64,000 nucleotides of DNA. Source: Lethocerus indicus. Lineage: Eukaryota > Arthropoda > Insecta > Hemiptera > Belostomatidae. Position 1 is the stretch's first letter. Each line of letters starts with the position of its first letter. The stretch is taken from contig JACDQD010000012.1 in NCBI GenBank assembly GCA_019843655.1, forward strand, positions 992,001 to 1,056,000. Direction: 5' to 3'. The notes under the pieces are model-generated. The model had not been told where the DNA came from and did no database searches. It worked only from the letters and a program-made list of their open reading frames with translations. Below are positions 29,001 to 59,210 of this stretch, in pieces. A program made the translations under genes and the position numbers.

Positions 29001-32000
29001 GGTTTAAAAGCACTTTAATTTTTGTTTATTTTATTCTCTTTTCTGGTCAGCATGTGTGAAAGTTCTGCCCTCAAAACTGGTCCATTAACATTTCTTTCTG
29101 AAGTGATTCCTCCTCGTTGCCGGTTTCAAAGTACTTTAATTTTTTATTATTATTTGATTCTCTCTTATGGTCGCCCGTTGGGAAAGTTCTGCTATCAATA
29201 CCATTAACCTTTCGTTCCCAGTCGATTGGTCGCTCCTGTCGGCGGGTTTAAAAGGACCATAACGCCGGTACCCGTTTCGCGTCCAAGCCGGGTAACCGGT
29301 TGCCGACCGGCTGTTTGAGTTGACCCCCGGTCTCTATGAACCCCGCGACTCGACGCCGGCTTCAGAAAACCGGTCTAGCAGAACTTGTTCGAGGCTCCCC
29401 CTCCCCCTCTCCCTTTACTACCCGCGCTAACATCATTAGTATAGTCAAAGGCTAGCATTTATTTCAGCCCAGATTTTGTCGAATACTGTATCGAATTACT
29501 GGACACATACATATTAAATATATATAGTTTTAATATATTTAATTAAGGTCAACTCCCCAACGGTCTTTAATCCCCTGGAAGTCTTTGTTACCTTCCCATT
29601 ATTCTCTAATCAGAAGATTATTCAATTTGTAAAAAATTATATATATATATATATATATATATGCAGGATTGCATGTGTTAATAATTGTATTAGATTTCTT
29701 CCCATTAGTACTGTATGGTTTATTACTGTTAACACTAAACGTCCCAAGTCCACTTTATGCCAGAACGCAGACATTTAATATATATATATATATAATTTGT
29801 TTACAAATTTAATAATCTTCTGATTAGGTCATTAAGGAAAGCCAGCGGAGACTACAGGGTCTAAAGACCGTCTGGGAGTCGACCTTAATTAAATATATTA
29901 AAACTGGGGGCCTCTCTGTGACGAAATTGTTACAGAAATAAGGGCCCAGACTTCTTTGTATCAAGAGATGCGGAATTGTGTCGGGATTTAAGAATCTGCA
30001 GACCGTTTTTGGACATATGAAATACAATTTATATTGTGGATATGGGGAGAACCGAAACGTTGAAATTTAAATATAAAATAATAGTTCGCAGGGTCACGGA
30101 TTGGGGGGCTGAAGAAATTCGCGAGTATTCGTCGCATTCTATTCTGTAGGTCTGCCTATTTTGCAGACGGATATATCGTACAAAGGTTTTTGTCCGTGGA
30201 AACCTTGTCCTTCGGTTAAATTTAAAGACAATTTGAGTTGGGCCCACACGCGGCCCCAACACACGATTTATTAATCCGGTAGCAGCACGCCGAGAATTGT
30301 AGATGATAAATGCCATTAGGGAAATTAACGACAAGTCTGTTCAGTTGACTTTACTGTTGGTAACTTGCCATGTCTCATTCTGCGACGGTTGTTCCGTTAA
30401 ATTTAAAGGGGTTCGCCCACCCGCGACCCGGCCCTCGATTAGGAGGCCAAAACTGCGTCCACTTGCCAACTGGGCAATAATTAAAACAGAATTGACCGAT
30501 CGGCAACCTAATGATACATATCGCGGTGATGAAAAGCGAGGGTTTGGAATTCCGCGCTCTGTTTCTGCGGCTCCCCACGTAGATCGGTCGTAACGTCTGA
30601 AAATTTCAGTCCCCCATTTAGCCATGACCCAGACCGGTCATTGAGCTTTTACTGCAAAACTGCCGACGGGATGCCCAACCTACTGACCGAAATCTACTGA
30701 AGACCGGTCTAGGAAAATATCAAATCAGCAATGATTATCATAATCAAATCGTAACAATCAATAAAGCTTCTAGACCACTTTTACTACGTGAAATTAGTCG
30801 AACGATAGTCGATGATCTCTATTCATCGATATTGTCAAGGAGAAAAGTCTCTAAATGCCTCTATATTTGATCGCTTTATACTTCGCGATACCTATTAACT
30901 ACCAAATATTTCTATTTAAAAAAAAAACCACGAATTATTGCAATATTTAATGAATTTAATACGACGCTTTGAAGGCGTTTGGGATAATGCTTTTTTTCAC
31001 GAAACCGCGTGTTGCATAAGGCTCGTCTAATAGGAAGGGGCTTTCCCTAACGGCCCGGCCAAGTCCACATCCTTATTTAGACTTGGGCTCCAGACTCATT
31101 ACCCGGGGAGTCTGTGCAGGTACGCAGGTATCTGCCCTCGCCTTCAGACCAATAATATATCTAACTGGCTATTTCGAAAATTTCGATTTTTCATTTTCGA
31201 AAATCAACAATATTCTGAAAAACGGTGACCGATTTAACAACACAATGTTGCGGTCTGTTGTCAAGGAGTCTAAGTACCAATTTGTAACGTGGTTTTTATA
31301 TTGCTTCCAAGTGAATCTTCTCTCCAAACGAAATCCCAAGTAAAGCAGTAAGTTTCACTCTATTAGTGAAATACTGTGTTTAGGTATTTATTGTCGGGTA
31401 TCCTATGAAGGGAAGCTGGCAATGCCGGCCTAGCACAAGACTAGACCAGAAGGAAGTACATATTTTAGGATGATGTCCGCCACCGGTCGGAACTGTCTGT
31501 CCCCATTCGTCATTTCGACCTTAATCCAGACCGATTTCGGCTTCTCGCCGTCGTTTGTAGTTGCCCGTTATTAGTACAGTGAATGAAATCTAGAAGTGTC
31601 CTAAACTTATAAGGCTCGTCCCCCCTCCCCCTGTTGTATACAAATTTATCTCCGTATTTTTCGTTAAACACCCCGTAAATAAATTTTCAAAGCAATTAAT
31701 TAAATTTAAACGTAAATTAAATTGCTGTAAATGAATTATAGTAATTAATAACGATCCGTAATGTTGATGTATATGGACCCCCATGAGGTCACCACCGCCC
31801 CCAGGGTATCGCCAGTCTACATTGATGACAGGACGTCTCTCATTGGTAGTCGACATGACGGCCTACCTGACTATATTATTGATGAGGGTTTGGAATATCA
31901 TCCTGCGCACTATATCTCTCTCACTCTCACTCTCTCTCTCTCCTGCCTGTAGACTGTGACGCTACTGTTTTCGGCTTGTCGCCGTCTTCAGTAGCGTCCG

Positions 32001-35000
32001 AGGTAAGCGCGTCTACTCCTGACGATTCCTCTTGTCGCCACTGTCCCATAACATTTAAATATACGAACCGTCTTAAAACTTCGATTTCACCGAAAACCGA
32101 ACTGTGAAACCGAACCATCCGGCTCATCGGTATTCTTTACCTTAAACGATATGTCTCGGGTTCGGTCCTTATTGTTGTACCTAACAGTTCGGGTAATTTA
32201 AGGTAGTCGCCGGGAATATCAAAAGGGGTTTTTTAATTATCCCTCGTTTAGTTTTTGGGATTTGGTAGTCGCGGCTGGTCGCTCATTGTTCGATACCACT
32301 CAAAATTCTGAAAGGAGCCAACGTTGTCCATTATTTTCCCTCTTCTACATCCCAATTGCAAATCAAGTGCGGTACTTGGGACGGGACTTGAGACTTGGAC
32401 AGAAGTGAAAGACTCAAACGTACAGAAACGAAACGTACAAATTAATAATTTAACTTGTGTTCACGAGCTATCGGCTTCCCGATTATTTTCGCCAGACCGG
32501 TTTCGGCTGCTCGCCATCTTCAGTAGAATTGCGAGTCTGACAGTAGAAGTGGAGCGAGGTGACAGTGCAAACAGGATGCCCCACTAGTGTCTCATTTGCC
32601 AAGGTGACTCGCTACTGAAGATGGTGAGAGGCCGAAACCGGTCTAGCGAAAGGCCAAACCGGAGAGTATTCCAAACCCCGCGGACGACAAATCAGATCCT
32701 TAAATCCTTTAATTCGACAGCTTTACTCGCGTCCCGCCTTAAGCGGAAGTGGCCACGTAACTTCCTCGCTGCCTGAGTGAGGAGCAGGAAGTAGTACCTT
32801 CAATATAACTTAATATAATATACAACATTTTATTTGTGACTTACTTAAAATAAAATTAAAAAAACAAACAAACCGCGTCTACAGCCGCACTAGAGTAGGA
32901 CTGAGACATAAAGTCGTACCTTTCGATTTTTTTCCTAACAAAAGCCATCTAGATAATGAATTGACAGAGGGAGTAAAGTTGTTTCGCAAAATTTATGCTT
33001 AACTACGAATATTTTGTAACGCTAAAAATGACTGTTTAACACCGCATGTTTTTTCTTGGCCGACCAAGCGTGGAAAAATTTTCAACGGGCAAAAATGCAT
33101 TAAGTCAACCCCTAACTCACTTACAGAGATGGGGATACTTACCCAATCAATTATCGATCGTTTTACGATGGGACGAACCATTATCCCACCCCCTTCTATT
33201 ACTCCAAAATTGGATTGTTATTAAATATTACAGGATCTTATTAAGCCATCCAGACGGGGAGGGGGTGAAAGATCGATCGCCCCTATGTAGGATACTGGGC
33301 CATGTCTGGGAATAGTTTCCTGTCTACATCTTTTCTCCTTTGTTTCAGATTGAAAAGAAATTTTAGAAGTTGAAAATTTTAGGAAATTTTGAAAGTTTTC
33401 ATCGGCGCACAATATTTATGCGAATTTGCTATTTGCAGTATACGTATCGAATCTTTTAATAAATATTTTAGTGATTAAAAAAAACGTTCTGGAAATATAT
33501 TTGGGGCTGCTGTGTATACTACAAGGCTCTGGGTTGTACAACTGTTAGACGACGGTGTGTAATAAACTATTGAGGTACAAACATTTAAACAGTTTAACAA
33601 ATGTTCTTTGCGGCTATACTGGAATTTGAATTCTCCAGTTTCTGGAGTTATATTTGGGTTAGCTTAATTGCGATCGTACTCCCCGAAGACGAGGTCTTCT
33701 GTACTCGAGTTGCTCCCCTTACGCCAATAAAACCGGTTGTACATTTAAATGGGCGCCAATTTAAAGGGACTTCGTTTACAAATGTCTCGGTCGTTACTTT
33801 CTTCTTCAAGTTTGCCCGGGGGAGGGGGCGGGGAACGGACTACTGACTTTACAGAAGCCGGAAGCGCTCGAAGGACTGTATCGAATTACATTTACTTTAC
33901 GTTACATTGAAGGTCTTTTCGTTTAAACTTCTACTTCAATTACAATTCTTTTTATTTTAAATCACGACTATAATTTTTAAAATTATATTTTGCGACACAG
34001 CGATGACGCTGGTGTATTTTGAGTCCGCGCTGTACTCCCAACTGTTACATTTTTATAGAGGAAATCGTAGCATAAAATGATAAGCGGAGCGAATAGAGCG
34101 GAGAGTTCGTTTCCGGCCGTTCGATGATAACGTTTCGATCTTCGAGGTCGATTAAGAACGCGTCCTAATAAAACTTGAATTGACTCAGACGATATGTACG
34201 GTTAGTTGGTTCAGTCGAAATCAAAAAATTCCGGAACAAATACTGTGATAACTTGTGTTTGAATTTTAATTTTTAATAACCCTGCTTAAAATTATAATAG
34301 AAAGTATTTTAAATTGTCTTTCAAATACTTTAATTTTGGATCTGGCATTTTCTTCTTCGGGAATGTTTCCATTCCTTCCTCGTGTCAATCGTAATTAATG
34401 TAATACTTCAATAAAATCATTTTTTCTTTATCACTGCATATCAGAAGTAAAGGTGGTATCTGCATTTATGCAATTTTTTACTCTCTGAAATATATTTCAC
34501 TCGTAATATTATCAGTATTGGCGCGTTGTCACTAATTATTTTTAGCAACTGAAATTGAATATTACGATTAAGACGCGAAAAAGAGAGAAAAACAAACACG
34601 GTAATCCAATGATTAGGTCTTCCAATAATAACCGTTATTAATGTAATAATTCAATAAAGTCACGAATATAAACACTTGAAAAGTGTCACTTCGGTTGGGT
34701 GAAGGTTTCTCCAGGGTTTTTGTAGCACTAGTGACATTTTCGCTATCATCACTAACCTTCCTCCAAACGCTTCATAGCCAAACGTCTGTAGTTATATACT
34801 TATAGTACATATATATAGTACTTATAGTAATATATGGTAATCTAATACTTATAGTTAACTAATTTGTTAGTTTAACATACCTGTTTTGGGGTCTGCGAGG
34901 GGTTGGAATACAGTAGTTTGTTGTGTTTCTGTCTCCTCTCGCTGGTTTGGTCATTTGCTAGACCGGTTTCGGCTGCTCGCCATCTTCAGTACAAGTAAAA

Positions 35001-37070
35001 GTGAAGTGAGCATGCCCGAAAACCATCCAAAGTCCCGAAAGTGACTATCACCGCTACTGAAGATGGCGAGCGGCCGAAACCGGTCTAGCAAAAGACCAAA
35101 CCAGCGAGGGCGACAGAAACACAACAAATGTTCTGCCGAACTAATTGGTTCGTTTGTATGGATATTCGTGAGTACGATGTTCGTAATTCACATCCGGCTG
35201 TACCCGGTATACTCTTCTTCCTTGGTACCGCCGCGTGTGGGCTTTCGTTCGCTTTGTCCGCCGACTGTGGGAGAGAAAAACCCGGTAGAGGGAAAACCTT
35301 AATCCACTTTCCCGGAGATGGAGGATCGCTGGGAAAAATGCCCTGCGGGGGTTTTATATATACAGTTGTTCAATTGTCTCTAATTCATCGGCTATTCCAC
35401 AAGTCTAAAAGTAGGCGTACATTCACTTTCGCTCGGTGAACTAAGATTTATTCCTTTGCTCCTTCTTGTAACATCAAAGACTTCCATTTTACATTTATTT
35501 TATTGCAAAATCAACAGTGTTAGGCTAAATGAATCCAGTAATGATTTAAAATTGAAGGAAACTTCATTGCGTCCACCATCACGAATCTATGCATAAGAAT
35601 CTTCAATACATTTTTACAGTTTTGCGCTTACTATTTATATTTATAGTGTTATTTTGGAAGAGAATAATTAAACCTAATCCCTCAGTCGCTCCTTATACCG
35701 GAAGCAACAGTTTTCCTTACAATTGGAAATTTCAATATAGGTTATTTTTCCTTCGTCCACTTGTGCAACAGTAATTTATATGGAATCGCCGACAAGATAG
35801 GGTCTTCGCAGGAATGGAATTTCCCCCCTATGAAGACATAGTAAGTGACATTGTCACCGGGAATTTATAAGTTGCTTACAAATTAGCATTTTCCGCTCGA
35901 GAGAGGTCCACTGCACCGCTTCTGTGACCAGCGACAAAGGGCTTCGCTATACCCCTTCGGTCTTCCGGTTTCGTGGGCTACCTGAAAACCCGATTAACGG
36001 TATTCGGAGGAAATCGGGATTGTGTCTCGTGTAACTCGAGAGGAAAATTCACTTTCCGCCTACATCGTATACCCTTTTTCGGTGTATTCGCTTGTATACG
36101 AACCGCGATGAAAGGTGTAATTCATCGGGTATATGTCTAGTTTTATAATTCACAAGGTCCGCCGGCCACCGGAGTCGTAAAAGTCGGGGAGGATTTAGGG
36201 GGTTGTTGAATGGTGGATAAGGGTTGGGACGTAAAGACGTCGCAACTGTCAAGTCTCTGTGTAAATCAGTCGTTATACATTTTTAAATTGGTGCCACCGT
36301 GCCAAAAGTCAATACCACAAAAAAAATAACAAATTAGTATACTACTTATTGAAAGGTAGGGTTACAAAGATGTGTTCCGTTAGTTTAATTTTAAATTAAG
36401 AAACTATTTTGTCCTGAACAGTTCTCGATCGCGTATACTTGAGTTTACGAATGATCACCCCTCACGATTCGAATTAAGATATCGGTCGGTAAAAATGTAC
36501 GGAGCTCGAGCGAAGATCAATTTGAAATATATTTGGCGGTCCGACGGGTGTTTGGAATATCATCATTCCTGCTTGTCACTTTACATCAAGAGTACCGTGA
36601 CAGTTGAGGCATGCGACTGAAGACGGCGGAAAGCCGAAATACGCCCAGCCGATTGGCGAGGAAATTGGCGCAAAATTGGAGTTGGAAGGTCTCAAGATAG
36701 ATATTTATGGGTGTGATCTTTTTAACCCTTATATTTTGTCTTACGGGAGAGTGAATTTCTGCCTCCTTTCGCTTATTTAATCCGACGCCAAGAACAGGTT
36801 TCGGCTTCTCGCCAGCTTCAGTAGTACAGTGTACCGGCCCTCGATGAAGCATCCTCTCAACACTGTTCTCGTAAATAATAACACTCTTTAAATGAATAAT
36901 GGATTAGCGCAGACGTGTTCCGGCGTGTTACGCTTCATTACGCTTTATGTTCTCAAGCTTTTTTTGTGACAACTATATTTTTAATTATTTATTTAATATT
37001 TACATTTAAGTTTAATTTGTTTTTTTGTTTCAGGTATGTGCATCAAACTATTTCGGGTGTTGGTCCAATA
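26089..37070 (+). CDS. Unrecognised plus-strand gene, first two coding exons only
   Basis: Exon one has ATG at 26089 and ends at 26102 before GTGAGT. Exon two is 37034-37070, with acceptor TTTTTTTGTTTCAG and donor GTAAGT. Joined, they read MSSKRYVHQTISGVGPI, phase 0 at the end. The 26089 ATG sits just downstream of a T-rich, then GC-rich stretch and back to back with MIPEP. The first intron would be 10.9 kb, and the next coding exon could not be found with confidence in the remaining 27 kb. I do not recognise the protein. Exon two begins GTATGTG straight after CAG, so the acceptor is also a good donor, which may mean recursive splicing. The pair could still be chance splice signals. Confidence is moderate because both exons are very short. 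Confidence 0.4.
26103..28887 (+). other. AT-rich stretch, probably intron of the 26089 gene
   Basis: About 2.8 kb with low GC and few CpG, like the introns of the genes on its left. The open frames are short and unrecognisable. I see no repeat or RNA gene in it. Confidence 0.5.
28888..29262. repeat. Minisatellite-like tandem array, unit about 120 bp, just over three copies
   Basis: Units start at 28888, 29006, 29127 and (partial) 29250, each at AAAAG or CAAAG. Every unit carries in order (A)GxACTTTAA, ATTCTCT, a GAAAGTTCTGC(C/T) box, TTAAC, GATTCCTCCT or its variant GATTGGTCGCTCCT, and GGTTT. The end of unit one (TCCTCTCGCTGGTTT) is the same string found in the arms of the foldback family at 34917 and 20183, so the array may have grown from a piece of that element. 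It sits where base composition changes. Confidence 0.75.
29526..29905. mobile_element. Inverted duplication or foldback element, arms about 130 bp
   Basis: The left arm (29526-29661) starts AGTTTTAATATATTTAATTA and ends in (AT)n. The right arm (29778-29905) is its complement, ending TAATTAAATATATTAAAACT. The outer 44 bases differ at only a few positions, and TAATCAGAAGATTATT is matched inside the arms. A 116-base unique core separates them. No transposase is present, so it is either a non-autonomous foldback element or a local inverted duplication. Confidence 0.75.
31524..31560 (-). repeat. Degenerate foldback-family arm with hammerhead-like motif
   Basis: On the minus strand the copy keeps GGC-GAGAA-GCC followed by GAAATCGGTCTGG, but the CTGAAGA box is reduced to an ACGA-type remnant. 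Only one arm is present. Confidence 0.5.
31958..31998 (-). ncRNA. Hammerhead-ribozyme-like motif copy with perfect 7-bp stem I
   Basis: On the minus strand the order is GACGCTA, CTGAAGA, C, GGC-GACAA-GCC, GAAA, ACAG, TAGCGTC. GACGCTA and TAGCGTC pair over seven bases. The GGTC expected before the stem is missing, so the cleavage site is probably lost. It is a single arm of the foldback family. A (CT)n run lies just to its left at 31916-31942. Confidence 0.4.
32485..32660. mobile_element. Foldback element copy, two inverted arms around an 84-bp core
   Basis: The left arm has GCCAGACCGGTTTCGGCTGC followed by TCGCCATCTTCAGTAG. The right arm is its complement, GCTACTGAAGATGGTGAGAG followed by GCCGAAACCGGTCTAGC. 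The core shares GTGACAGTGCAAACAGGATG with the copy at 39632 (one base different), which shows that these are members of one family and not chance inverted repeats. No coding sequence is present. Confidence 0.75.
32609..32649 (+). ncRNA. Hammerhead-ribozyme-like motif, best-preserved plus-strand copy
   Basis: The order is TCGCTA, CTGAAGA, T, GGT-GAGAG-GCC, GAAA, CCGGTC, TAGCGA. TCGCTA pairs with TAGCGA over six bases (stem I). GGT pairs with GCC using one G-U wobble (stem II). The palindrome ACCGGT could form stem III between two molecules, with predicted cleavage after the C of GGTC. Hammerhead RNAs have C-U-G-A-N-G-A and G-A-A-A core boxes in this order. The extra pyrimidine before stem II is not textbook. 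This is inference, not a proven ribozyme. Confidence 0.45.
34955..34994 (-). ncRNA. Hammerhead-ribozyme-like motif in left arm of the 34917 foldback
   Basis: On the minus strand the order is TTGTA, CTGAAGA, T, GGC-GAGCA-GCC, GAAA, CCGGTC, TAGCAA. Stem I pairs TTG-TA with TAGCAA if one G is bulged, as if a C was lost from TTGCTA. Stem II is GGC with GCC. Confidence 0.4.
35053..35089 (+). ncRNA. Hammerhead-ribozyme-like motif in right arm of the 34917 foldback
   Basis: The order is GCTA, CTGAAGA, T, GGC-GAGCG-GCC, GAAA, CCGGTC, TAGC. Stem I is four base pairs, stem II three, and ACCGGT is self-complementary. Confidence 0.45.
36613..36826. repeat. Two degenerate foldback-family arms in back-to-back order
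   Basis: A right-type arm on the plus strand at 36613-36650 (CTGAAGACGGCGGAAAGCCG then AAATACGCC) precedes a left-type arm at 36791-36826 (AGGTTTCGGCTTCTCGCCAG then CTTCAGTAG). Both keep the GGC-N5-GCC stem. The order is the reverse of the intact elements, so these are pieces of two copies or a rearranged one. Confidence 0.6.
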
Positions 37071-37694
37071 GTAAGTAGATAAATCCACTTTTCTAAAAAA
37101 CAAATTGTCCTATTGTCTACAATTTGATAAGGGTTGTAACCTTTCGGTCTGTAAACATCCCTTGTCACCAAAAGATGGTAGTTTACCCGCCAGTGAACTT
37201 AATCTTTCCACCTTCCTTCCTATTTCGTCACGAGGTTCTCATAAATCTTTTTATGGGCATTAGTAACTGTCCGTAGACGACAATTTTAAACAGTGTTAAA
37301 TTTTTGGGGGGATAAAAACTTGGCCTATAGTTGCATGATTTTTTTTACACTTGTGGAAAACACGTTTTCACAGAAAATTACGTAATATTTAATTAATATA
37401 AAAATAAATACGCGTGTTCTTAAAGCAAAACATTGAAGTTTTCTTCTGTAATTCTAGTTTTCAGTATTTTTTAAAATAAAGTTATTGTTCATTTAAAGCG
37501 TGTATATATTTTATATATATTCTCAAAGATGGGGAGGCACGCAGACGGCGCGCAAAAAATATTATTGGGACAAATCTGGAACGTGAAAAGTTCGGTGAAC
37601 TCCGCACAACAGACGGCGCCCAGAATGTCAGAAATCAAATCGTGTGACGAATATGGAACACTGTGCAGGTTAATATGATTTTGGGTAAGGTGAC

Positions 37695-38578: not shown

Positions 38579-38600
38579 AATTCTTGTTTAAACAAGAATT
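38579..38600. repeat. Perfect 22-bp palindrome
   Basis: AATTCTTGTTT is followed immediately by its complement. No spacer and no flanking symmetry. It may be a small cruciform-forming site or chance. Confidence 0.6.
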
Positions 38601-39528: not shown

Positions 39529-39631
39529 GTATAGTTATCTTTCTATAACACTAGCTATTCCCTTCCCTTTTTAACTGTACAGTCAACCGTTATCTTTATA
39601 TGTACAATTGGGGAATGTTATTCTGACATAG

Positions 39632-39870
39632 ACTTTTACTAGACCGTTTTCGGCCACTCGCCACTCTTCAGTAGCGGAGCGCGAGTCGATTCGGCGCATG
39701 GGATATTGACTTTGCATTGTATCACTTGTACTGCGGGGGTTGTCTTGTTTGTCGAGTAAGTGACAGTGCGAACAGGATGACCCGTGTGCCGAAGTGACAC
39801 TGCTACTGAAGATGGCGAGCAGACAAAACCGGTCTAGCAGAAGACCAAACCTGAATGAGACAGAAGACAG
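39632..39870. mobile_element. Foldback element copy with about 45-bp arms
   Basis: The left arm has ACTAGACCGTTTTCGGCCAC and the right arm GCTACTGAAGATGGCGAGCA followed by CGGTCTAGCAGAAGACC. The core near the right arm has GTGACAGTGCGAACAGGATG, shared with the 32485 copy. Outer arm sequence (AGAC, CAAACC, GACAGAAGACAG) is also family-like but eroded. Confidence 0.7.
39800..39840 (+). ncRNA. Hammerhead-like motif with 6-bp stem I but broken core
   Basis: The order is CTGCTA, CTGAAGA, T, GGC-GAGCA-G, then ACAAAACCGGTC and TAGCAG. CTGCTA pairs with TAGCAG over six bases, which differs at two base pairs from the copy at 32609. The GCC-GAAA part has mutated, so stem II and the core are lost and activity is unlikely. 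Confidence 0.35.
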
Positions 39871-40702
39871 TGAAAACTAGGACAAATATGTTCTGCCCTT
39901 GTTTTGGGACTGTCTTTCTTTTTTGGATTGGAGGGATTTTATTAAGCAGTTTATGTCTTTCTCGGATTATTGGAAGGGTTGTGGTCATTGTGTTGAATTG
40001 AACATGGAGTAACTCTGGGAATTTACTTCCTCGTTTATTATTATTTTTTGTTTATTCTTAAGTATTTCTCTAGATAAAGAAGCCACCCGGCGATGGCACT
40101 TTTGACGGGCTAGTGGCGTTTAAGCCCTCGTTTGGGGTGCCCACTAGTTAAGCTTTAATAAGTCCATAAAAGTCCCCTGTCAGCACGAGTGGTGAACTAC
40201 CGCGCTTAGTTTCCCACCTACATGCTGGTAATAGATAACCTAATCTCCCCCTATAGAGCAACTCGAGACGATATCGACACCGCCATCGAGTTGTTTAGAT
40301 TCCAACCCGTTCTCAGAAAATAATATTTAGTCGCGCTAGTTAAAATGAAATTAAAACATAACACTGAATCTCAGTGGAGTTAATATTCCTGCACTGGAAG
40401 ATTAGTTATTATCCCGTATAAGATGTCTTTATTATAAAAGAAAAATTTCATGAGATTTTTCCTCCTCCTCCTGCTTATTTGGCCTGTAGAGTTTAGGACA
40501 CCCTCCTATGTTGTTAGTGAAGTATGTGGTTATTATACCTAAAAACCTCGTTTGTACCTGCATCCTTTTTTTGTTAAAAGGGTTTTTGAAATGCTCAAAG
40601 TATTCCGGGATTACCAATTCAGATACGCTCGCAATTAATCGATTGCCAAATCTGAATAGGTCGTTAGTATTTCAATGAAATCTCATACCTCAGTGTCCTC
40701 GG

Positions 40703-40737
40703 GCTACTGACGGTGGCGTAAAGCCGAGACCTTTCCG
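40703..40737 (+). repeat. Degenerate single arm of the foldback family
   Basis: The order is GCTA, CTGACGG, T, GGC-GTAAA-GCC, GAGACC. No partner arm is close by. Confidence 0.45.
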
Positions 40738-41610
40738 GGTTAGGACCGAACAGGCGAGTGAAATATGTGTCATTGTACCCCTTTAATCAACACAGTGCTT
40801 TTCATTGTTTGTTATTGAATCGGGTTTTGAACTGGGTTCGATTGCAACTCGATAAGGGTAATACGTTGACCCCCATCGATTTTACCAAATAGGCGTGTGG
40901 GGGTATGTAGGAGGTATCCTCCCTCGTCCGAGGGGCGCTACTGTAGTTGAACTTAAATCTACGTTTTGCAGTAAATTGTTTTCAAAATATTAATTTTGGC
41001 AATCTCTTGTACCAATTAAAACTTTCGCCAATTAAAACTCAAAGTCATAGGTGCAGTAACCAATTACTTTGGTCCTAGTGCGCCCACTATTGCTGTAGAA
41101 AGGGGCTAATTTATCGTTAAGGGGGAGGTACATATTTTCGAGCGGTGTCTTTTTTTTCCCTTCTTCTTCGAGTCCACGGCGAACATTGTTTATTTTTAAC
41201 AGTTGGCACTTGTCCCGCAGCCGTGTGCTGGTAGTGCGGGCTCCCTTCGTGGAGCTTGTGGGGACACGCACACGTACACAGGTTTTTTGTGTTCCCGCTC
41301 CATTTCCAGGCTTTAAAATCCAGGAGTGGTGACTCGAGTTATAAACTCTCCTCTCGTTGGTCTAGAAATAAAGCAAGAATGAGAGGAGGGGGGGTTGGAT
41401 AGAGTACTTGGCTTTTAAAAGTCCTGCCCCCGCTCGGAATAATTGAGACTTGACACTTTCGGGCTTTGTTTAAGCGCTCCAAGGCCCCTCGCCGGGAATG
41501 CGGGATTTTATCAACTCCCTATACGTTATGAACGTCCGGTTTCTCGCCGCGGTCGGTAGCGTCAATACACAACATTAATACGACCGTATAAATCAAAATT
41601 TATCTCATTT

Positions 41611-41690
41611 TGCTAGACCGGTCCTGCCATTTCGCCATCGCCAGTAGCATTTATTTGGCACTTGGTAGCACGAAATGCTACTGAAGACTA
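41611..41690. repeat. Compact degenerate foldback-family copy
   Basis: TGCTAGACCGGTC and TTCGCCATCGCCAGTAGCA are followed 27 bases later by TGCTACTGAAGACTAAG. On the minus strand TGCTA pairs with TAGCA around the motif. Inner boxes are eroded. Confidence 0.5.
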
Positions 41691-46394: not shown

Positions 46395-46553
<159 letters not shown>

Positions 46554-47435
46554 CGTGCCAACGGCCCACAGTGACTGTCCCTTTCGAAACAAACAAACGT
46601 TTGTAGAAAATCATAATTTACTAACGGTTGAACGGAATTTAGTCAAATGTTCAGTGTGTACAGACTGTTTTATAGTTGTTCGCCCCAGCGTTATATTGCA
46701 AATAAAGAATGTCCTTTCGTATTATTCCCCTTGTTGTCATACCTGCTTGGAGGCTACCTGTTTGCCGATTAGGCAGCTTGTTGCCCCTAACAAATGTTAT
46801 GTCCCGTTCGCTAGTCATAGCGCGCAGACAGACTGCTGTTCCGAACGAGAGGTTACAGCCCGAATCACCTAAATTTCGCTCCAGTTTTTGCCGACGGATA
46901 TTTTTACGGGTGCGTTAAAAATTACAGAACAAACTGGGCGGAATGGCTTCACCGACTAATCCCATTATTTCTCTTTCCTTCTTGTAATTCAACTTAGTGT
47001 AATCTTGTTATTCAAAGCTTTGACGACCTCGTGGGCATCTCATAATTGGATGAGCCCCAGCGATGCGACCGAAAAGTCGATTTGTTCATTTCTCATAATT
47101 TTTCATCGCCTGGGGTGTCGTAACTGTGATAGGAAATCTTTCGCTGAAAATTCGAATATTCCTTAACTATAAAGAGTTAGTTTTATTTTTATGAGCTTGG
47201 ATTCTCGTTGCAATCGGTAGCGCGCCGTTAATGATAGGGCCGAGATAAATGCGGGTCGGGAGGCAGAAAATCACACAGTTATAGTGAATTCTGAAATTAC
47301 CACGGCGTATTTCTACAGACAAAGAGTTCTCCCGTAAGCGCAGTTCACAGAGCTCTAGCATAAGGTACAAGACAAAGTTACGAGACACTAAAATAAGAAA
47401 CTATATTCACGAGAATTAATTATTAAATACTTTAA

Positions 47436-47674
47436 CCCTCTATGGGCCGAATTTTTATTTTAAATCCAAAAAAATTGGGAGAACGAATAATCAGCAATTA
47501 TAAATCTATATATACAAATGAAAAAAAATTACAAAAAATGATATTGATATTGGTCATATTGACAACGTTATTGGATTAAGATTTATGCGTTATCTCACGA
47601 AAAAAGCTATAATTATTTGGTAAAATCTCGATAAATTGAAATGTGACCTGAAAGTTACACGGGCCCATAGAGGG
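47436..47674. mobile_element. piggyBac-type MITE, copy 1 (239 bp)
   Basis: The element is bounded by TTAA on both sides (47432-47435 and 47675-47678). It has perfect 13-base terminal inverted repeats, CCCTCTATGGGCC and its complement. The body is AT-rich and non-coding, and contains ACGAAAAAAGCTATAATTAT and GTAAAATCTCGATAAATTGA. TTAA target and ends starting CCC are marks of the piggyBac superfamily. It must have moved with a transposase coded elsewhere. Confidence 0.88.
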
Positions 47675-48273
47675 TTAACTTTAATTGTCACCGAATGGTA
47701 TCAATACCTATAATTTTTTTATTGCGCAATCAACATCGCTTACATGTTATGGGTGCATGTGATCTTATGTATTGTTCTGGTACATATGGTATATAAATGA
47801 CCGCAATTATTTTACTTTAGTGGCAATAGAGAATTTATTTAAAACTTCTATCCCGGCCCGACTGCATTTACTTGGGCGGCAGTACCATCATGCGGTTAGA
47901 TAACGGTTATCACACTTGGCAGAGTCGTTGCTCACATGTATCGGACAGCCGTGGTGGTGACGTATGGTCGAAGATAGGACGTATATGTCGTGGTACGATC
48001 GGCGATTCCTGAATCCCTGGAATCGCTGTCCCCATATATGGTGATGGGGGGGCGTCTCTCTGATTCACTCCTGCAACAGCCGCAATCGCTTTAAAACGGT
48101 TCCTAATATTCCAGCGTTGGGGTTCTTATTAAGCCCCCGGAGTCGTCGATAGGAGCGAAAATACCCGGTCTATTCCTAGACCCATATGGCGAGTGGACGA
48201 TGGGTCCCAACGACCCGATTACATTTCGAATGATCCGAGGAATTTTTTATTAAATCCCAATCTAATTCCTCCT

Positions 48274-48310
48274 TTTCGATTTCGGCGTTTCGCCATCGTC
48301 AGTAGCGTCA
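48274..48310 (-). ncRNA. Hammerhead-like motif copy with CTGACGA core
   Basis: On the minus strand the order is GACGCTA, CTGACGA, T, GGCG-AAA-CGCC, GAAA, TCG. The loop bases have changed so that stem II is four base pairs, which supports selection or inheritance of a structured form. The 3' side (ACCGGTC and stem I) is lost. Confidence 0.35.
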
Positions 48311-48340
48311 GTTGGGGTAATGCTACAAGGATGCAATAAA

Positions 48341-48445: not shown

Positions 48446-51400
48446 CGTTCCCACCACATTACGCGGTTTTACCGGAAGCCAGTTATAATTCAGTAGTTCA
48501 ATAATTTATTTATTACTTAATTATTAATAATAAATAAAAATAATAAACAATATCAATGTCCCTTCTTTACGGTAGAATGCATTTGAGTTTATTCTACGGT
48601 CATTCTGATGTAGCCTTTCAATTGTTATCTTTTATAGAACTTTTAACATAACTTACTCAAGTGGAGATAACATTTTTCGGTCGATTTCAACACTTTTCTA
48701 TTTAATATCAACAATATATAGTTTAATAAAAAAAATTGTACCCCCGAATTTGTCTTTTTTGAGATATTTGTTAATCAGCTCCAGGTGAATTCGTGTCTGA
48801 GACGTTAACACTCGTTACTCGCCGTCGCGATACGCTTCATAATAAATTCAAACAATACACTGCAGTCTCATTACTAGGCACAATACGCGCCTTTATGAAA
48901 AAAGGTTTTGTGTCGGTACTAAAAATAAAAAAAAAACAGGTCTCATTAGGACTTTGTCTAATTGTCACGTTCTGCTGAAGCGATCCCGGCATAATAGTTT
49001 CAAATGTAATTGGGCAAATAGTTTTGCTTTTTTTTTACCGAAACTAATTTCTCGTGAATTTACAGTTCGCTTACTCGTTACAAATTTTATTTATAATAAA
49101 CCGTATGAAAAAAAAATTATTGTACAATACAAATTATGCAGTACGTGACTGGCGCCGCGATGTCATGTGGCGGATATCGTAATTACAGAGTGAACACATG
49201 TCACTGGAGGTGAAGGAGGGCCTACATTGTTCCACTGTTATCACAGAACAGCTGTTCTCCAACGCTCGCTTATCCAATTTATTCGTGTTCCGTTCTCGAT
49301 ATGAACCGAGAACGCATTGTATCAATATCCTGAAATGTTAGTCCGCAGTTATATTTTGTATTTATTCATTATTCATTTCGCCTATGGTGCAAAATCGGTA
49401 TATATAATTGTTTCTATTATACAGCAATTAGTACCACCCTCGCCCACAACTATTATATAAGCCATTATATTATTACTCCATAGTATCTTTGAGGCAACCA
49501 GACGGGTTTTGGCCGGCGTCTCGACCTCGCAGCAACTGGAACCGGTCGCGTTTTCTCCCTCAGTCCGGAATAATTATTCCGCGGGTTCGTAACGAATTCG
49601 ACTATACGGCCGAATGGAAAGTCGGGGTCGATCCACGCGTCGGTGGCTTACTCCGACTTGTATTCCAGGACGCGGGACTTACTGCTTTTACGTTTAAGGT
49701 AACGGGTGAGAACAGTATAGGGCAGTGTACGATAATTTAAATCTGATACGAACGGAGTATCTCCTTATATCGAAAGATTTAATAGCAAAAATTTTAATTC
49801 TCGGAGTTGACAATAACTATACACCTTCTTTTATTGCACAATCAACAAACAATCTTATATTCTAGGTGATTTAAGTATTGCCCTGACATATTTCCCGCCC
49901 TTTTTTTCTAGACAGAAAAAATCTCTGGGCCAGCGGCCTTTAAGAGGGGGAAGAAAGACGGGAATGAAATTTAGGAAACCGGAATCTTATGGCTTGGTCG
50001 ACTGTGAGTATGTTGAGGTCGTTGTGAAGCCCGTACTTGGAAATATAACAGTGAGCATTGGGGATGGATCGAAGTATTTTCGATTGGAACCTCTGGATTT
50101 ATAATATTTTTGACAGGGGTTGATATCAGTTCACAGGGGGCGTTTCGAAACTTGTTCCTTTTTTTCGAGATCATCGTCCCCGTTTATGCCGATGAAGGCC
50201 CCAAGGATTTCTAACTGTTGAATCTTTCGTGCGGGCGGCAGTAGGTCGATGGGAGGATAAGGGTTGATTTAGGGTTGCGTGCGCCCCCCCTATCGTATCT
50301 CGGGTACGATTTAACCACTTGACACGGTTACCGATTTTAATTTGAATCGAAAGACCCAAGCTCTAGCTGACTCTAGATCTTCAGTTTGGATTTTCGGCCT
50401 TATCTCGTCTGACGCTCAATCGATGCAACGTAAATAGTAGTGAGAACAACAGTGTGTCGGACGTACATCCAGACAGAAAATTGGAGGAGAGATATAAAAT
50501 AAAATATATATTTTATATAGATAAACATTTGTCAGACGTGTGCAAAACACTTCTGGACGTTTATTAATGCAACGTCAATAAACTTTTACGGAATTTATAT
50601 CTTACGCGTAGGATTTATTTGTTGGGCTAGTAGATATTCTTAACCGCCCCAAAACCTGATGGTCGGTTTTGATGGAGTAGTGGCATAGATGGAATGTCGC
50701 ATAGTAATCGGCACTATATATGAGATCCTATACAACGTGTGTTGTCTGTCCCCGTTAACAGGCGTAGGAGTATCGTTCCAATACGAAACGACGGAATAAG
50801 AAGACTGGGACAACTTGATGGATGTAGCAGGAAGGATCCACTTGGGTCGAGGGGAATTAAGTTTTTATTTCTACGGGGTTTCCACCGCCGTCAGTCGAAA
50901 CGATGAGGAAATAAATTATTAGTTCGGTCCTAGAAAATTATTTGAAATTGATGGCAGGCGTTCCTCGAGGGGTGCTGAAAACGCGCTCGAATGTCCTGAT
51001 CCTTCGCCATTAAGCGGCGTTACGCCACGGGGACGCAGTTGCGACACCCGGAGGGCGTCGCCCGCCAGTCCAAATTGGCCGGGTGAATAATTTTTTTCAA
51101 AAATTAAAAACGATTTCCGCAAATATTGCGCAATATCTGCCGGTGCAGATGTTGTGTCCGCCGGGGCTGTTGAACCGGTCCGAGCGGCGTGCTTTACATA
51201 AGGACTTTTAAAAACTATAAATACGCGATTGGATGGAGCCAAGGTGAACGTGTCAGCTGATTCATCGCTTCGGACTTTTTAAATCTCCCTGGGGTGGAAG
51301 GGGTTGGGGGAGGGGGGCGAAATTTCCACCACCTCCTTATTCGGAATACCCGATTTGCATATTGCCCTCCCATTCACTTGCCTTTAAACGGTATTTCTTG

Positions 51401-53669
51401 CCTCCCGTTTAAAAAACACACGTGTGATCTTCGTAACAATCTCCACAGAGAATCGTACCTTAGGAATAATGTGGAATTCTTGTGTCCGCATGTTACCAAA
51501 AAAACAAAACAAAAATGCCAAATCGGTGTTACAGGAGCAAGCGATTTAGGTATTGTCGTCACACGGTTCTCATGATGAGGAAATCATACACCGGCGACAT
51601 TGTCCTGACTTGTTATTCTGGACATTAGGGCCAGCCTCGTTTAAGCCACTTTAATGGACGGGTAACTGATGAAAGGAATTCGACGAGAGGATTCGCGTCG
51701 AAACTTTGTTAACTTTATTTCAAACGAATATCGTAAATTCACGAATTTTAAGGGTGTGTTGGCGATAAAAAGATCGAAACTCGAAAAGCCAGTGCTAAAA
51801 AATTGACTGCGTAGTGAAGAGTTGAAGGGGGGGAGTCTTCGAGTGCCTTTACGTGTTTTCGGTGGTCCCGAACACGATTTAACCATTTTCAATGTGGCGT
51901 GAGCAGTTTTCCGGTGTCTGTTCCGCCGCCGGAGCTCCTTCACGCTCTTTCCTGCAGAATTACTCAAAATATCACCACCCTTGATAATTTCTCTATCGTC
52001 AATACTAGCAGTAAATATCGCATTCTATTTGTAACGCAGTCCTACTGACAAATGAGCTTTGTATTGTACATTAATTTTTACCTTTCTATAAAATTGTGTA
52101 TCTCGAAAACCAATCACTCATAGTAACCCGTTGAAAATTTAATACGTTCCTGACATATGTTCTACTCATATATTCCATAGTTGCATTTTTCGAACTGTGA
52201 CCTGTTGAAAGTCTTTTTTCATTGTGAAAGCCGTCGGGAGAAACGGGGTACTTGAATTTTAAATTCAAAACTTGGCGCTAGAAAGAAAATAAACTTTGCC
52301 ATTAAAATAAATTGCTATTTGCTTTCCGGTTGGCTTCCCGAGCGGCAGCTGGTGAAGTTTTTCCCGTTTTTGCACTTTCACCTAAGCCCGTAGTCCTAAG
52401 CCCCGATCGAAGGTCGAGTCCCCTACTTCGGTTGGACAACTCTCTTAGAGGCGTAAACCTCCTATGCAAACCTTAACTACTCTATTCGCCCTTAAAACTT
52501 TAAAGTGTGCTTCGTTTGCAGTGTATTTCATTTTAAGCATTAAATTTTGTGGTTACGCCTACAGTTTTGCACTGACGACTAATCGCTTGATATAAATTAA
52601 TTTTGGTTAATAATACACACTTAAATTACAGCCTTCGCTTATGTCATTGTCCTGAAACAGATTACGTGGAATTAATACCGGTTCAGTTTCCGATTTTTCT
52701 AGTGTGTCGCTTCCTGCGGGACGCCTGTTGAAAGTCAGAAAGATAGGAATTATTTCTGTTAGATGGATTTCGGCGGATATTACGTAAGTACGGTTTCGAA
52801 TTAAACTGTGTCTTTATCGAGGCCGTAATATTAGTAAACGTTTCTAAAAAAACAAACAAACATGTTCTAGTTTCTTGGTCAAAAACTAGATGAATATGGG
52901 TAAAATCAACCGGGAAATCGGGACGAAAATAGGGTCTGGAAACAGACGTGTTTTCGCCGACAAGTCTATCGCCGGTATTAACGAAAATAAATGAAAATGG
53001 GTTACGACATGGGAAAGGAATGTGCGGAGGAGGCGTTTTTTGTGTTAAAAAAATAGCAAATTCGGTGCTCGATATGCAGTGCCTAATAATTAGTTTTTAT
53101 TTTGTAATCCGACTGTTTGTCGCCTCTAGCGATAAGAAGATCGGAGTACTTTTCCGCGTTTTTTCGGGTTCGAATTTCGTTCTGAAATTAACATTAATTC
53201 GCGTTCGAAACGAGATTTAAAAGCGGCCGGTACTTTTGCATTTCGCGGGGAGGAGAACTTTCCTGACCGACCCCGGTAAGAGATTACTTTCCGAAACTTC
53301 GTTCGGCGAGGGTTTAAAGTGTTTACCTTAACGAGGAATATGTGATCTCCCCCCACCCACCCCCAAAACAAAGTTTAAAGCGTGTCCGGATTAGCTTTTA
53401 TGGCGAGGATAAAGCGTGTTTTTACAATTGCAAATTAGTTAGGAATATGCGCATTTAGAGTGTATTTTTAAGGGTGTATTCTATCCTCCCCCGAATCCGA
53501 TTGGGAGGGTCGATGGCATTGTGCCCACTACTGTGCATTGTTGAGAATCCACCCTCTAATTGGCACTTGTACAGTAATGGGGGAGAGTCCTTTTCAGATA
53601 ACATAACATGTTCCTGTCATAATCTGTTTACTTATACCATTGGCGTGGATAGTACTTTCAATTGTTTAA

Positions 53670-53888
53670 CCCTCTATGGGCCATTATTTTAAAACCAAAA
53701 AAATTGGAACGAAAAATCAGCAATTATAAACCTATATGTGCGAATGAAAAAAAGATATTGATATTGGTTGTCTTGACAACGTTATAGGATTAAGATTTAT
53801 GCGCCGTCTCACGAAAAAAGCTATAATTATTTGGTAAAATCTCGATAAATTGAAATGTGAACTGAAAGTTACACTGGCCCATAGGGGG
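53670..53888. mobile_element. piggyBac-type MITE, copy 2 (219 bp)
   Basis: It has TTAA on both sides (53666-53669 and 53889-53892). The left end is CCCTCTATGGGCC; the right end complement is CCCCCTATGGGCC, one mismatch. The body matches copy 1 at 47436 along its length, in the same orientation, with small deletions near its 5' end. Confidence 0.88.
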
Positions 53889-54399
53889 TTAAGAAAAAGT
53901 TGAATCCGCCGAACCAACAGAATGTATCATTTTTAGTAAATTTCATTTACAAAAAACATTTTATCGTCAATCGTGTAACTATTTAGTCATAATTTTAAAA
54001 ACCGCGAATAGAACTATTGAATAGAATGTTATCTTAGTTTAATTTTTTGAATTATAATTGAACCACGCATCAAATTGATACCTGGATATTAGGGCCAAAT
54101 CAGGTTCAGAGATAGGTTTAAGTTTAGATCGACCGTACATTAAATGGTTACGAAAATGTATGACTAACCTTTAGAAGAGAGTGTGGTCTGAATAGTTTTT
54201 AAACATTTGTAATTACTATTACAATTTATCAGTATAATTTGTCAGTTTGAGAAATGGGTTAAAGCTAGATTTATATCCTGCATAAAATGCAAGCCGTACA
54301 CATTACCTCGTGAAACTCCAATAAAAAAACTAAATCTTTTGTTGGGATAATATTGTAATAACGCATATATCTTGGAATAAATTGGCTTTTTCTGACATT

Positions 54400-54430
54400 C
54401 TAGTCTCCTGGCTCGATTCCAGGTCTCGGC
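54400..54430 (+). repeat. tRNA T-arm-like hairpin
   Basis: CCTGG, CTCGATT, CCAGG forms a perfect five-pair stem with a seven-base loop, as in a tRNA T-arm with one loop change. It follows an AG after a T-rich run. Probably a piece of a tRNA-derived SINE. Confidence 0.35.
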
Positions 54431-57400
54431 CTGCTGCTTGCCCTCGTAGCGTTAAATGAGTACGGAGTCTTGTATAATGAAAGAAAACAAGGAAATTTCA
54501 AAAACCTCTCTTTTTGATTATCGGCGAAAGTACAACAAGGGGAGTGTTTCGAATTTTATCCGAAACGTTCCCACGTGTGATCCGGCCACCAGTTTCGTTC
54601 CGGGTTCATTAAATTTCCATTCGGTGGGAATCGATATACCCGTGGGGGCCTTAACCCTGCCTCCTCATTGAAATTGATCACTTGAAAGCGTAGTACGTCT
54701 CTCGACTTTGTGTTAGAAGTTAACCCGTATCGAATGAAAAAAAACATAGTAAACGCTTCAAGTTTGTAGAAATTCGCGTTTCTGTTATTTAATATGCGAA
54801 CAAACTTTGATATGTTTGTGTTGGAAAAATCCCGAATCTCGGCCCCTATAATTTCTATGTTTTGGGGAATGTTATTTTCAGAAGCTTTAACACGGTCAGC
54901 TTCCTCAATTTTTCAACTCGAAATAGAACCCGGTCTAAAATTTCCAGTAATATTACGGCGGTCTAAAAACAGAAGTAAACAAAAAAATAGTATTTAATGT
55001 CTATATATTGGAAAATATTCTTATATCCTTAAGGTTCCTCCGTCCGACTATAAAACGGAATTATTTCAGATTTCATACAAAAGATTGATTCATAATATTC
55101 TCGCGTAATTAGTGTACCATAAAATTATTAATAAACTGCGCTGAATTGTACTTTGTGAGTCCACATTCGCGTTTTTGGACATTAAGCTGAAAAACAGTAC
55201 GAAATAAAATATTCATATAACTCTCTTAAACATACAACACACGATAACAGATTAGCAAATGTTCGGACAAGCAGCAAACACTCAGACTTAAATAAAATTT
55301 AATCCAAAAAATCAAATTTCAGTGGATACAACGGAGTTGCGGAAAAATAGATTAACAAAATCATAAAATGGATGTTTTAAGGAACAATTGGGAAAAAACG
55401 TTGGGAAATTCAGTAATGTGTATTAGTCTGCAGCAGTTGGCAACTGTCGCTCTTGACTTTGTATGCAAATACGCAGTATTGATTGTCATTTTTCCATTTT
55501 AACTTTATACGAACACGAAAGGATATTTGGATAATGATATTTTCAAGAATTAGTACTTTGTTTTAAATAAAATTTAAAACATATCTTCAAGAAGGTAATT
55601 AACCTAAATAACAATAGATTACTTTTCCTTCTTTCTTTCTTGTCCTTTGTTACTAATCGATCTTCAAATCTTGGTATAGGTACAATAGCGCCGATAATAT
55701 TCTTTTCATTTTGTTTTTTTCCTGAATATAAATTTTAATATATTTCGAAAGGAACAGATATTTGTTGTTCGGAGGAACACAAATGTCTGGAATTGTGATT
55801 TATTTTACTTGTGCGCTTGATTTTCACCAAGGGGGACTCAAAAGGACATTCATCACGCTGATGCAGACAGAAAACGTTAACGCGCATTCAGGTTTTAAGC
55901 TGACACAACGAGTAGTAAGACACGAGCGTTTGTTTGATTGTAATTTCGAAACAGCGTTAATGAGTGGAGTTTACAAAAAGTCAAAACAAAAATTGTCTAC
56001 TCGTTATCGGTGCTGATCGAACATCGATATCTCGTATTGCATTTTACAGTTGTCACAGTAAAACAGTGAAAAAAAGTCCCGTATATAAATTTTGTTCGTG
56101 GACATTGTTTCCTGGTACTTTTTTATCCTGTAAGTATCGGTAACTGTCGCAAATTTTGAGAAAACAATGTTCCAGCCACATGTCATTATGTAGAGTAACA
56201 TTTCTCTGTTATTCAGTCAACTTCACTGTTGTATTCACGAGGTACGAATTTTCATAGATAGAATTTCTTTTTCATTCAGTCTCATATCTAAAGACCGTAC
56301 ATCCGAAGAACCAGGTGTCCCATTAATTGCCTTTTTTATAAGATCATTTTATTTTATACATTTTATACATAATTTGCTCATTCTTGTTTTAAAGTACTGA
56401 TTTTACTGTAATATTTTCACTTTCTGAGGCTTGCATGGAAATATAATCAATTTCTGCCTCCAGCGAAAGAAAAATCTGCCTCGAACTTCTCGATTCAAGC
56501 AAATTGGCCTTAGGAAACAGGTTTCTTTTTTCGTATAAAACGACTGGCTCGCAGCGGGTCTTTTTTTGTGGCTTCGTTTATTGCACAGCAAGTGGCCCTA
56601 CAGTCAGTAGAGCCGTCCTCCACGGCTTTAGGCCTAAAACGGAATCGACTTTCATCTTGACCCATTTATAGACCCGTCGTTTTCATCATTTTCAGGCCCA
56701 ATTTAGAGACCGAATATCATCCCTTTATTACTTTTCACCGATTGGTCGAGTCCCAAGAAAAAAGGTATACAAGCAGAGATATTCCCTATTTAAATCTTAT
56801 ATCGAACGTGAAAATAATCTTAATTTGTAAATATAAATATTTTCCGTGCAAGGATTAAATTAGATAGTAAATAATGGCCTATTAAAAGGGATTTTACGGG
56901 GATTTTGAAATCAATCTGGGCAATTCCTAAAAAATTCCATAATATTACGCGAGTCTATCGGAAGCAAATTACAGAAAATATATGCTCGGTTCGGCCTCCA
57001 GCGCATGATTTCGTGTAAAACATGAGAGCAGGTGATATAAGAGATAAAAGGGATATGTTGTTGTCAAGTGTCTGCACGCGTTGATGAGGAAGCGGCTGAA
57101 TGAACTGCACCGATGCACGGGGTGTCGGAATCGGGAAGTGGTGACAGGGGAGACAGCCGCGTTATCCGAATTTCTAATACCGACCGTAACAAACAATAAT
57201 TATGCGTTCAAAATTATATCTGGGTATTTGTCCTAGACCTGTTTCTCTTTGGCTAAAACGTATTGTAAAAAGTTGAAGTCGAATTATAGAATTTCGAGCC
57301 TGACGCACGAAATCCTGTCCTGTTTCTCTAACGAATAATATTTCGAACTCCTTCCTCCCGATCTATATCTATCGTATTGAATGGGCACATAAGTGGATTT

Positions 57401-59053
57401 CAATTTAATTACCTCATTCAATTCAATTATTTTCTATGCCGTATTATTCCGAGTTTCTGTTTTGTTGTCGCCTCCTCTGTAAGTAGGGGTCCGGAGACCC
57501 TCCCCTGTGAAGGGGGGCGGGGCGGTATTTTTAGAGACCCGAAATAAACCCCCCAAGAAAGACACTAGACAGGTTGGTCTCTTTTAAAATAAGAAAAAAA
57601 ATAGTTTTATCTTTCCCGTCACCCCTCTTCACTAATTTTAACGGATACTTATTGCCGCGTAATTGATGTTTTTCTTCCTCTAATTTTATTTCGGACCGTT
57701 TAATTAACCCCTCCCTGCGGATTGTCATTCTCGAACGAATCGTCTAAAATGAATTTACTCTTAAAATCTTAACGGCGCCACCAACGATAAAATAATTTTA
57801 GTTTATGTACAAATATGTACAACTAAAAACTGTTTTAAATACAATGACTGAAAGTAGTTATGATAATTGAATAGAAATAGGGGGTACTACGCCTTCTGTT
57901 AGGCAAGTGGCCGTACATTAATTATGTAAATGAACAATAATTTGTATTAAAGTGGAATTTCATAACTTCACTTTGTTTAAGTACTGTGAAATGACTTGTA
58001 ATTTCTCAGTACCCAAACATAGTTTGGGTTCCTCCTCTTTGTTTTCATCAATCATGCGGAATCCAAAATAATTCCTTATTACATTATTTACACATGCAAA
58101 TAATTGAATTACAGGGGTATAATAAAATAATTAGGAAAATTGTATTTTCTCGCTTCGTCGTTTGGTTTCGGTTCGCGGTGCGGAATGAATGCTTCAGGGT
58201 TTTTTAAAATTCCTTTCGGCGGCGATTACTTTATTATGATTTATTGCACGCGGCGTGACCGTTGAGGTTCGATTGTTCCCAGATGCTGGAACTTAAGTTC
58301 CGACTGGGCGTGCTTAAACTGAAATAAAATTTTAAACGAGCGAACGTTTCCGCGACCAGAACTTATCAATTATCACTAACTGGCTTCCGGTAGGATTTGC
58401 CTTTCCCTTCTGGGACCCTCTTGGGTGCTGTCTGCTCGGAACTCTTACCGGTTCCATTCCAGGTTTAGATATACGTTTAATATAAAATTTAGGATAGGGC
58501 GCCATTGAAAAGCTAATATACATAAATTTATGTCGATCGATATTAAAAACAAAAATGGTTTTTCCTGTTTTAATTGACAATTGGCAACATAGTTTCTGAA
58601 CATGCTCCATAGATTTGGCAAGTTTTGTTCCGCGAGTTTGACTCATTACTAAAATTAAAGTCCGAATAATATTTATTTTTATTTAAGCGTAGTTGAATAT
58701 TTGTGTAATTGGCGTCCGCCGGGCGATAAGCCCGTCGGAGCTATCGCGATCGCGCCATCCTGTTTCCTCTTAAACATCTCTCTCGGCCTTACGAATTTAA
58801 TTTTAAATGGCTTTATTGTAATTCGAAGTTCTTATTTTATTACGGCCCTAAGTAAATGTTAAAATCCCAATTTCAAAATACGTACGGTTTAGGTATGTAT
58901 AGAAAAAACCCACGACAAATAAGATTGCAGTTTGAGTGCGAAGCTGTTCTGAGGATCGCACGATTCAGAATTTCAGAATTACATTTTCCTTTTCAAACAA
59001 TTTTTGTATTATTTATATATTATGTATTATTTTAAGCCGCTCTAATTCGTGCT

Positions 59054-59210
59054 GGACCGGTTTTGGTTCGTCGCTAGTAATAGTCAGTTTTTAAGGAGTT
59101 GGTTTGGAATATCAAACCCGAGGTCCTATTCACCCATTTGGGGTTAAACTCTGAACCGTTTCGGCTTCTCGCCGATTTTACTTGGCGAAAAGCCGAAACC
59201 GGTCTATCTC
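59054..59210. repeat. Foldback-family fragments, including a compact hairpin
   Basis: A worn arm at 59054-59095 (GGACCGGTTTTGGTTCGTCG) is followed at 59154-59204 by a hairpin: CCGTTTCGGCTTCTCGCC, a ten-base loop, then GGCGAAAAGCCGAAACCGG. The hairpin is two arms brought together by loss of the core. Confidence 0.6.

Follow-up and report, generated by a model that had tools for sequence, protein, structure and literature searches.

Foldback repeats of Lethocerus indicus as probable terminal repeats of a Penelope-like element with a minimal hammerhead motif

Introduction

Penelope-like elements (PLEs) whose pseudo-long terminal repeats (pLTRs) carry a hammerhead ribozyme motif are a known kind of arrangement. 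In one Penelope element, the pLTR holds the first 12 codons of the open reading frame (ORF), a number that rises to as many as 22 when the tail is counted; of two inverted pLTRs, one may or may not have this tail, and short target duplications accompany some copies (PMC3846280). Head-to-head is the most frequent inverted arrangement there, and is explained by the authors through self-priming on an antisense template (PMC3846280). The ORF of a PLE from Anolis, PAc, starts at stem II of its hammerhead; cleavage was shown for PAc and required protein, and the hammerhead was dispensable for insertion in vitro (PMC11167929). We describe a family of foldback repeats from Lethocerus indicus (Hemiptera: Belostomatidae), found in a stretch of 64,000 nucleotides (the window; GenBank assembly GCA_019843655.1, contig JACDQD010000012.1, forward strand positions 992,001 to 1,056,000). 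We hold with high confidence that these repeats are pLTRs of an endonuclease-type PLE, that most of them stand in head-to-head inverted solo pairs lacking a reverse transcriptase (RT) gene, and that they carry a minimal type I hammerhead motif. A limited open-access literature search found no reports of this PLE family.

The repeat and its link to a Penelope-like reverse transcriptase

The motif shared by the repeats, CTGANGA-Y-GGC-N5-GCC-GAAACCGG, matches the invariant hammerhead nucleotides and adds one pyrimidine. At no more than 3 mismatches it has 10 matches in the window (100 shuffles: mean 0, largest 0), which bears out the original prediction of about ten copies with a common order of parts. 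A profile made from 11 window copies, which as seeds match by construction, gave E < 0.01 for 16 stretches and E below 1e-8 for 12 of these; 13 copies were aligned, and the three further partial stretches were left out. A full descriptor (CTGANGA, an optional extra nt, stem II of at least 3 bp, GAA, A..TH, stem I of at least 4 bp) fits two window sites, 32615+ and 35057+ (100 shuffles: mean 0.01, largest 1). Foldbacks had also been predicted, and clear ones are present at 32.5, 34.9 and 39.7 kb, with the motif facing outward in both arms (Table 1). The best preserved includes a 212-bp palindrome (34917-35128, 77%), with a folding energy of -140.9 kcal/mol for the pairing of one arm with the other.

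Elsewhere in the 426.8-Mb genome assembly the same repeat adjoins a PLE RT. At least 53 RT matches to P0073 were found (best E 8.8e-40), and six loci picked among the stronger ones (L030 to L035) were read, all of which match PLE proteins (E 5e-36 to 1e-50). In L031, a pLTR with the motif (532-665) is followed by RT/GIY-YIG-like ORF pieces (1459-3102) and a second pLTR with the motif (3221-3350), the two pLTRs being in direct orientation and 94.8% identical over 134 bp. The ORF pieces contain stops, match PLE proteins by tblastn (E about 2e-51), align to positions 289-790 of the 817 of P0080 and include the GIY...YIG motif; the L031 RT is 31% identical to P0094, a PLE protein of Anolis carolinensis of unassigned clade. 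The Pfam domain RVT_1 is matched at 2.8e-10 in L030 and at 0.0007, under the cut-off, in L031.

The repeat adjoins RT in five of the six loci (L030, L031, L032, L034 and L035; not L033), a small sample of strong matches read with no comparison with random loci. RT regions of L030, L032, L034 and L035 are about 90-96% identical to that of L031, and in L030 the RT fragment continues in frame into the tail of the repeat. Because the same repeat flanks the RT ORF in L031 and adjoins RT in these four further loci, we read it as the pLTR of a PLE. 

Two of the loci have features of their own. L033 (C1:47391501-47394500) belongs to a second PLE lineage that lacks the repeat and shares about 42-46% identity with PLE proteins already known. 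In L030 (1-2726), a single long open frame, partly N, joins GC-rich minisatellite-like blocks to a PLE RT fragment.

Inverted pairs and copy number

Arrangement was assessed from 184 arm hits in 20 genomic stretches chosen for their cores, taking neighbours within 250 bp. Head-to-head was the orientation of 57 of the 81 neighbour pairs, with 11 and 3 in the two direct orientations and 10 tail-to-tail. None of 120 PLE proteins matched these stretches at E 1e-3, so the pairs in them are solo. Half copies are found in every orientation. The tail is about 34 bp long and corresponds to the sequence just inside the 5' pLTR of L031; it is found on one arm in 31 of the 57 pairs, on both in 18 and on neither in 8 (28, 21 and 8 at another cut-off). 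Counted from its ATG, the coding part of the first L031 pLTR has 25 codons (591-665) and that of the second 24 (3279-3350). Of the four flanking duplications that were read, those of L003 (13 bp) and L006 (12 bp) match exactly, and those of L005 (10/12) and of the 34.9-kb pair of the window (11/14) imperfectly.

Across the assembly, the core at no more than one mismatch has 17,835 matches (8875 + 8960; about one per 24 kb), and a reversed control pattern has none. Identical PLE matches in the contig pairs C4/C144, C8/C99, C8/C123 and C3/C133 suggest uncollapsed haplotigs, and copy counts may be somewhat inflated. The core pattern matched nothing in viral contigs, in which PLEs were not found either. 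A genome contig collection gave one match, in a bacterial metagenome-assembled genome (L001); about two chance matches are expected by estimate (19 fixed bases in 257 billion).

The hammerhead core and the start codon

The consensus of 108 copies, of which the window supplied 4, matches the invariant core CUGANGA, GAA, A15.1-U16.1 and H17. Conservation was compared among minus-strand copies outside the selection listing, where the 41 of 80 with enough flank gave 0.971 for the core and 0.891 for the flanks. Of 5000 random sets, 0 reached the core value, and 29 of the 41 cores are complete; this set includes copies that face a chosen copy head-to-head, and the profile was itself derived from intact copies. 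A stricter cut gave 0.971 against 0.864, with 15 of 19 cores complete. Such conservation supports a working core without proving one.

Stem II is not joined directly to CUGANGA, one nucleotide lying between them. The original prediction had remarked on this pyrimidine as unlike the textbook core, and it proves to be a single extra position, T in 101 of the 108 copies and C in 7. As T it makes CTGAAG-ATG-GCG..., opening an N-terminus rich in basic residues. The extra pyrimidine between A9 and stem II can thus be accounted for as the U of the AUG of an in-frame ORF. Among copies with a strict ATG, 58 of 68 stay open for at least 22 codons, a count from copies that share descent and with no control run. 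The predicted cut site is 23 nt from the A of the AUG.

Covariation, on which the original prediction had relied, was unsupported in either set of copies. Against shuffles of stems I and II, the 13 window copies gave 77/500 for pairing and 84/500 for covariation (lowest of five measures 65/500), or 41/500 at the lowest with the stem III columns added. Their stem register pairs at 73.5%, against at most 37.6% in slid registers, yet one slid register scores equally high covariation (0.158 against 0.154 for the true one). Paired changes in stem I had been read at four sites, three of which lie in broken cores: 31991- (copies are named by position and strand) lacks two bases where CCGGTC is expected, 39806+ has GAC AAAA, so stem II is broken and G12 lost, and 41644- has CTGGCGA and GGC...GGC; only 32615+ is intact. 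The GGC/GCC stem does persist around loops that differ as first described, but in the window no stem II pair has changed on both sides, so that its persistence is conservation rather than covariation. In the 108 copies, 0 of 9 pairs had compensatory change above permutation (lowest 101/1000). One stem I pair has a 3' base other than A in 38 of 108 copies and yet pairs in 104, and its changes are therefore one-sided only. Copies of one family may be too similar to reveal covariation.

Weighing the alternatives

Several results weigh against a functional hammerhead or against the PLE assignment. Rfam hammerhead models, a check proposed with the original prediction, matched nothing in the window, L031, L003, L006 or L007. 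When six copies were folded, single or paired, none gave a complete hammerhead: in the 32523- pair, stem II appeared, as did a helix joining one stem III part to the other, while stem I did not, and whole foldback transcripts favour the arm-arm hairpin. Core and stem I are complete in 2 of the 13 aligned window copies; in the other 11, stem I or core bases are missing or, at 39671-, two extra bases stand where one is usual. Six-frame scanning of 31-61 kb of the window found no RT, endonuclease or transposase, and one sub-threshold match to Atrophin-1; 120 PLE proteins found nothing in the window (best E 0.065), and Pfam gave no GIY-YIG match in L031 at E 0.01, where a likeness to this domain is seen in the alignment and motif only. 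The automated duplication test was weak, with a score of at least 9 in 4 of 57 pairs and 10 of 298 controls (13 of 57 and 16 of 553 at an earlier cut-off), and was non-significant for four window foldbacks, among them the 34.9-kb pair, for which narrower element limits were used. The protein collection yielded no homologue of the N-terminal peptide, and the RN N-terminal signature expected from a general overlap is present in 2 of 27 long PLE proteins; the overlap of start codon and hammerhead may not be general among PLEs. Failure of the naked RNA to cleave would not decide the question of activity, since PAc needed protein and its hammerhead was dispensable for insertion.

The alternative that survives best is that the conserved core consists of the N-terminal codons of a protein, with the hammerhead likeness a relic. 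The motif does run in frame from the ATG, most strict ATG copies are open as counted above, the stems do not covary, and Rfam gave no match. We nevertheless consider this unlikely: CTGANG precedes the ATG yet is kept as well as the rest, and third codon positions are not less conserved (0.901, 0.921 and 0.917 for positions 1-3; 19 copies). The relatively high variability of N7 and the loop points the same way and weighs little, as the selection pattern left them free.

A metazoan retrozyme, a tandem non-LTR repeat of about 300 bp with canonical hammerheads and circular RNA (PMC7229834), would also be non-autonomous, hammerhead-bearing and abundant. This is very improbable and was rejected, the repeats being arranged mainly head-to-head rather than in tandem, with a palindrome alone in place of a canonical stem III and an RT-bearing PLE as parent.

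Least credible of all is a miniature inverted-repeat transposable element of DNA transposon type, with long inverted repeats and a chance likeness to a hammerhead, which would suit a short, palindromic, non-coding sequence in thousands of copies and was rejected because copies of this repeat flank a PLE RT ORF as direct pLTRs in L031 and are linked to RT at four related loci, half copies show every orientation, the four duplications read range from 12 to 14 bp, the better ones thus having no fixed length, the motif has the invariant hammerhead bases and keeps them better than the flanks, and the 31-61 kb scan has no transposase domain.

The assignment of the arms to a PLE with a dimer-type hammerhead, made in the original prediction, therefore stands at the level of sequence, where the repeats are PLE pLTRs; its argument from covariation does not, and most window copies are decayed.

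A possible mechanism

Stem III consists of the palindrome ACCGGT only, and the self-complementary ACCGGU could pair stably only with that of a second copy. In the scheme that we think likely, the PLE would be transcribed and two ribozymes would pair through stem III, whereupon each might cleave at the predicted site behind GGUC. The cut would free unit-length RNA and at the same time separate the AUG from the ORF. The PLE RT could then copy pLTR-tail RNA into new sites, presumably mobilising solo pairs in trans, and inverted pairs may arise as the RNA is reverse transcribed, through self-priming of the kind suggested in Penelope. Such a coupling would let a dimer of pLTR RNA act as a switch, cutting the transcript and removing its AUG, and so deciding between messenger RNA and transposition template; solo head-to-head pairs would exploit this as a non-autonomous amplicon, at about 18,000 near-perfect cores. 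We offer this last proposal tentatively, and think it doubtful as a whole.

With near-perfect copies of a PLE hammerhead motif at this number, and head-to-head pairs commonest in the stretches read, the family is a large natural set for asking what the unexplained PLE ribozyme does, and the overlap of ribozyme core and start codon makes a concrete, testable case. A caution is that the Rfam models matched none of the scanned copies.

Other features of the region

The coordinates of the repeat family in the window are collected in Table 1. A second dispersed repeat, with no sign of kinship to the pLTRs, lies at 47423-47678 and 53657-53892 (84% identical over 256 bp). The stretch 29526-29905 is a 380-bp palindrome (71% self-complementary) possibly of another foldback family, 28885-29262 holds two to three copies of a tandem repeat of about 120 bp, and 46397-46519 is a perfect (TC) run of 61 units with many weak and surely spurious Rfam matches. 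Two host genes are present, a cullin at 6.1-15 kb on the plus strand, which we take to be CUL4-like, and a mitochondrial intermediate peptidase at 19.6-25 kb on the minus strand. The best match of the peptidase is to Ranatra (68% identity over 66% of a hand-joined query), the next best being 59% and lower.

Table 1. Repeat-family features in the window, with positions counted from its first nucleotide
Feature	Position	Strand	Remarks
Best-preserved foldback, head-to-head inverted pLTR pair	34871..35138	.	Palindrome and fold; outer limits presumed from the flanking duplication; optional tail on left arm, none on right (flank compared with other copies)
Possible target-site duplication, left copy	34857..34870	+	11/14 match to 35139-35152, hand-read
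Possible target-site duplication, right copy	35139..35152	+	Hand-read
Complete minimal hammerhead motif	35053..35089	+	Stem I GCTA/TAGC, CTGAAGA, extra T, GGC-N5-GCC, GAA, ACCGGT, C17; in-frame ATG at 35063
Complete minimal hammerhead motif, 6-bp stem I	32609..32649	+	ATG at 32621
Hammerhead-like arm	34957..34993	-	Intact core, stem I only 2 bp
Second foldback	32487..32667	.	Arms 32487-32534 - and 32608-32667 +
Third foldback	39624..39879	.	Arms 39624-39680 - and 39798-39879 +; stem II and G12 broken in right core
Decayed foldback	59131..59206	.	Arms meet near GGC
Lone decayed copy	31504..31563	-	CAAACGA core
Lone copy	31937..32000	-	7-bp GACGCTA/TAGCGTC; 2 bases short at expected CCGGTC
Lone decayed copy	36609..36669	+	
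Lone decayed copy	36765..36828	-	CTGAAGC
Lone decayed copy	40698..40762	+	CTGACGG; GAG in place of GAA
Lone decayed copy	41606..41650	-	Core broken, stem I kept
Lone decayed copy	48256..48311	-	
Arm 3' part and tail, adjoining peptidase exons	20161..20245	-	

Comparison with known systems

De la Pena and Flores reportedly described, in 2001, a viroid hammerhead with an extra core nucleotide. The extra base is similar to the one found here; the viroid context and origin differ.

The Penelope of Adineta vaga resembles the present family in having a pLTR with the first codons of the ORF, an optional tail, a head-to-head palindromic junction and possibly short target duplications in some copies, and differs in that solo inverted pairs appear far commoner than RT-bearing elements in L. 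indicus; the word hammerhead is absent from the text of that paper (PMC3846280). Poseidon PAc of Anolis carolinensis shares the start of the ORF at stem II, and whereas its cleavage was demonstrated and needed protein (PMC11167929), that of the hammerhead described here is a prediction. The family is also like the minimal dimeric PLE hammerheads of Cervera and de la Pena (2014) and Lunse et al. (2017), which are of type I, without a stable stem III, dispersed in thousands of copies in animal genomes and maybe dimeric (PMC7761336, PMC6155905); it may differ from these in its one extra nucleotide after A9, which is here the U of the AUG.

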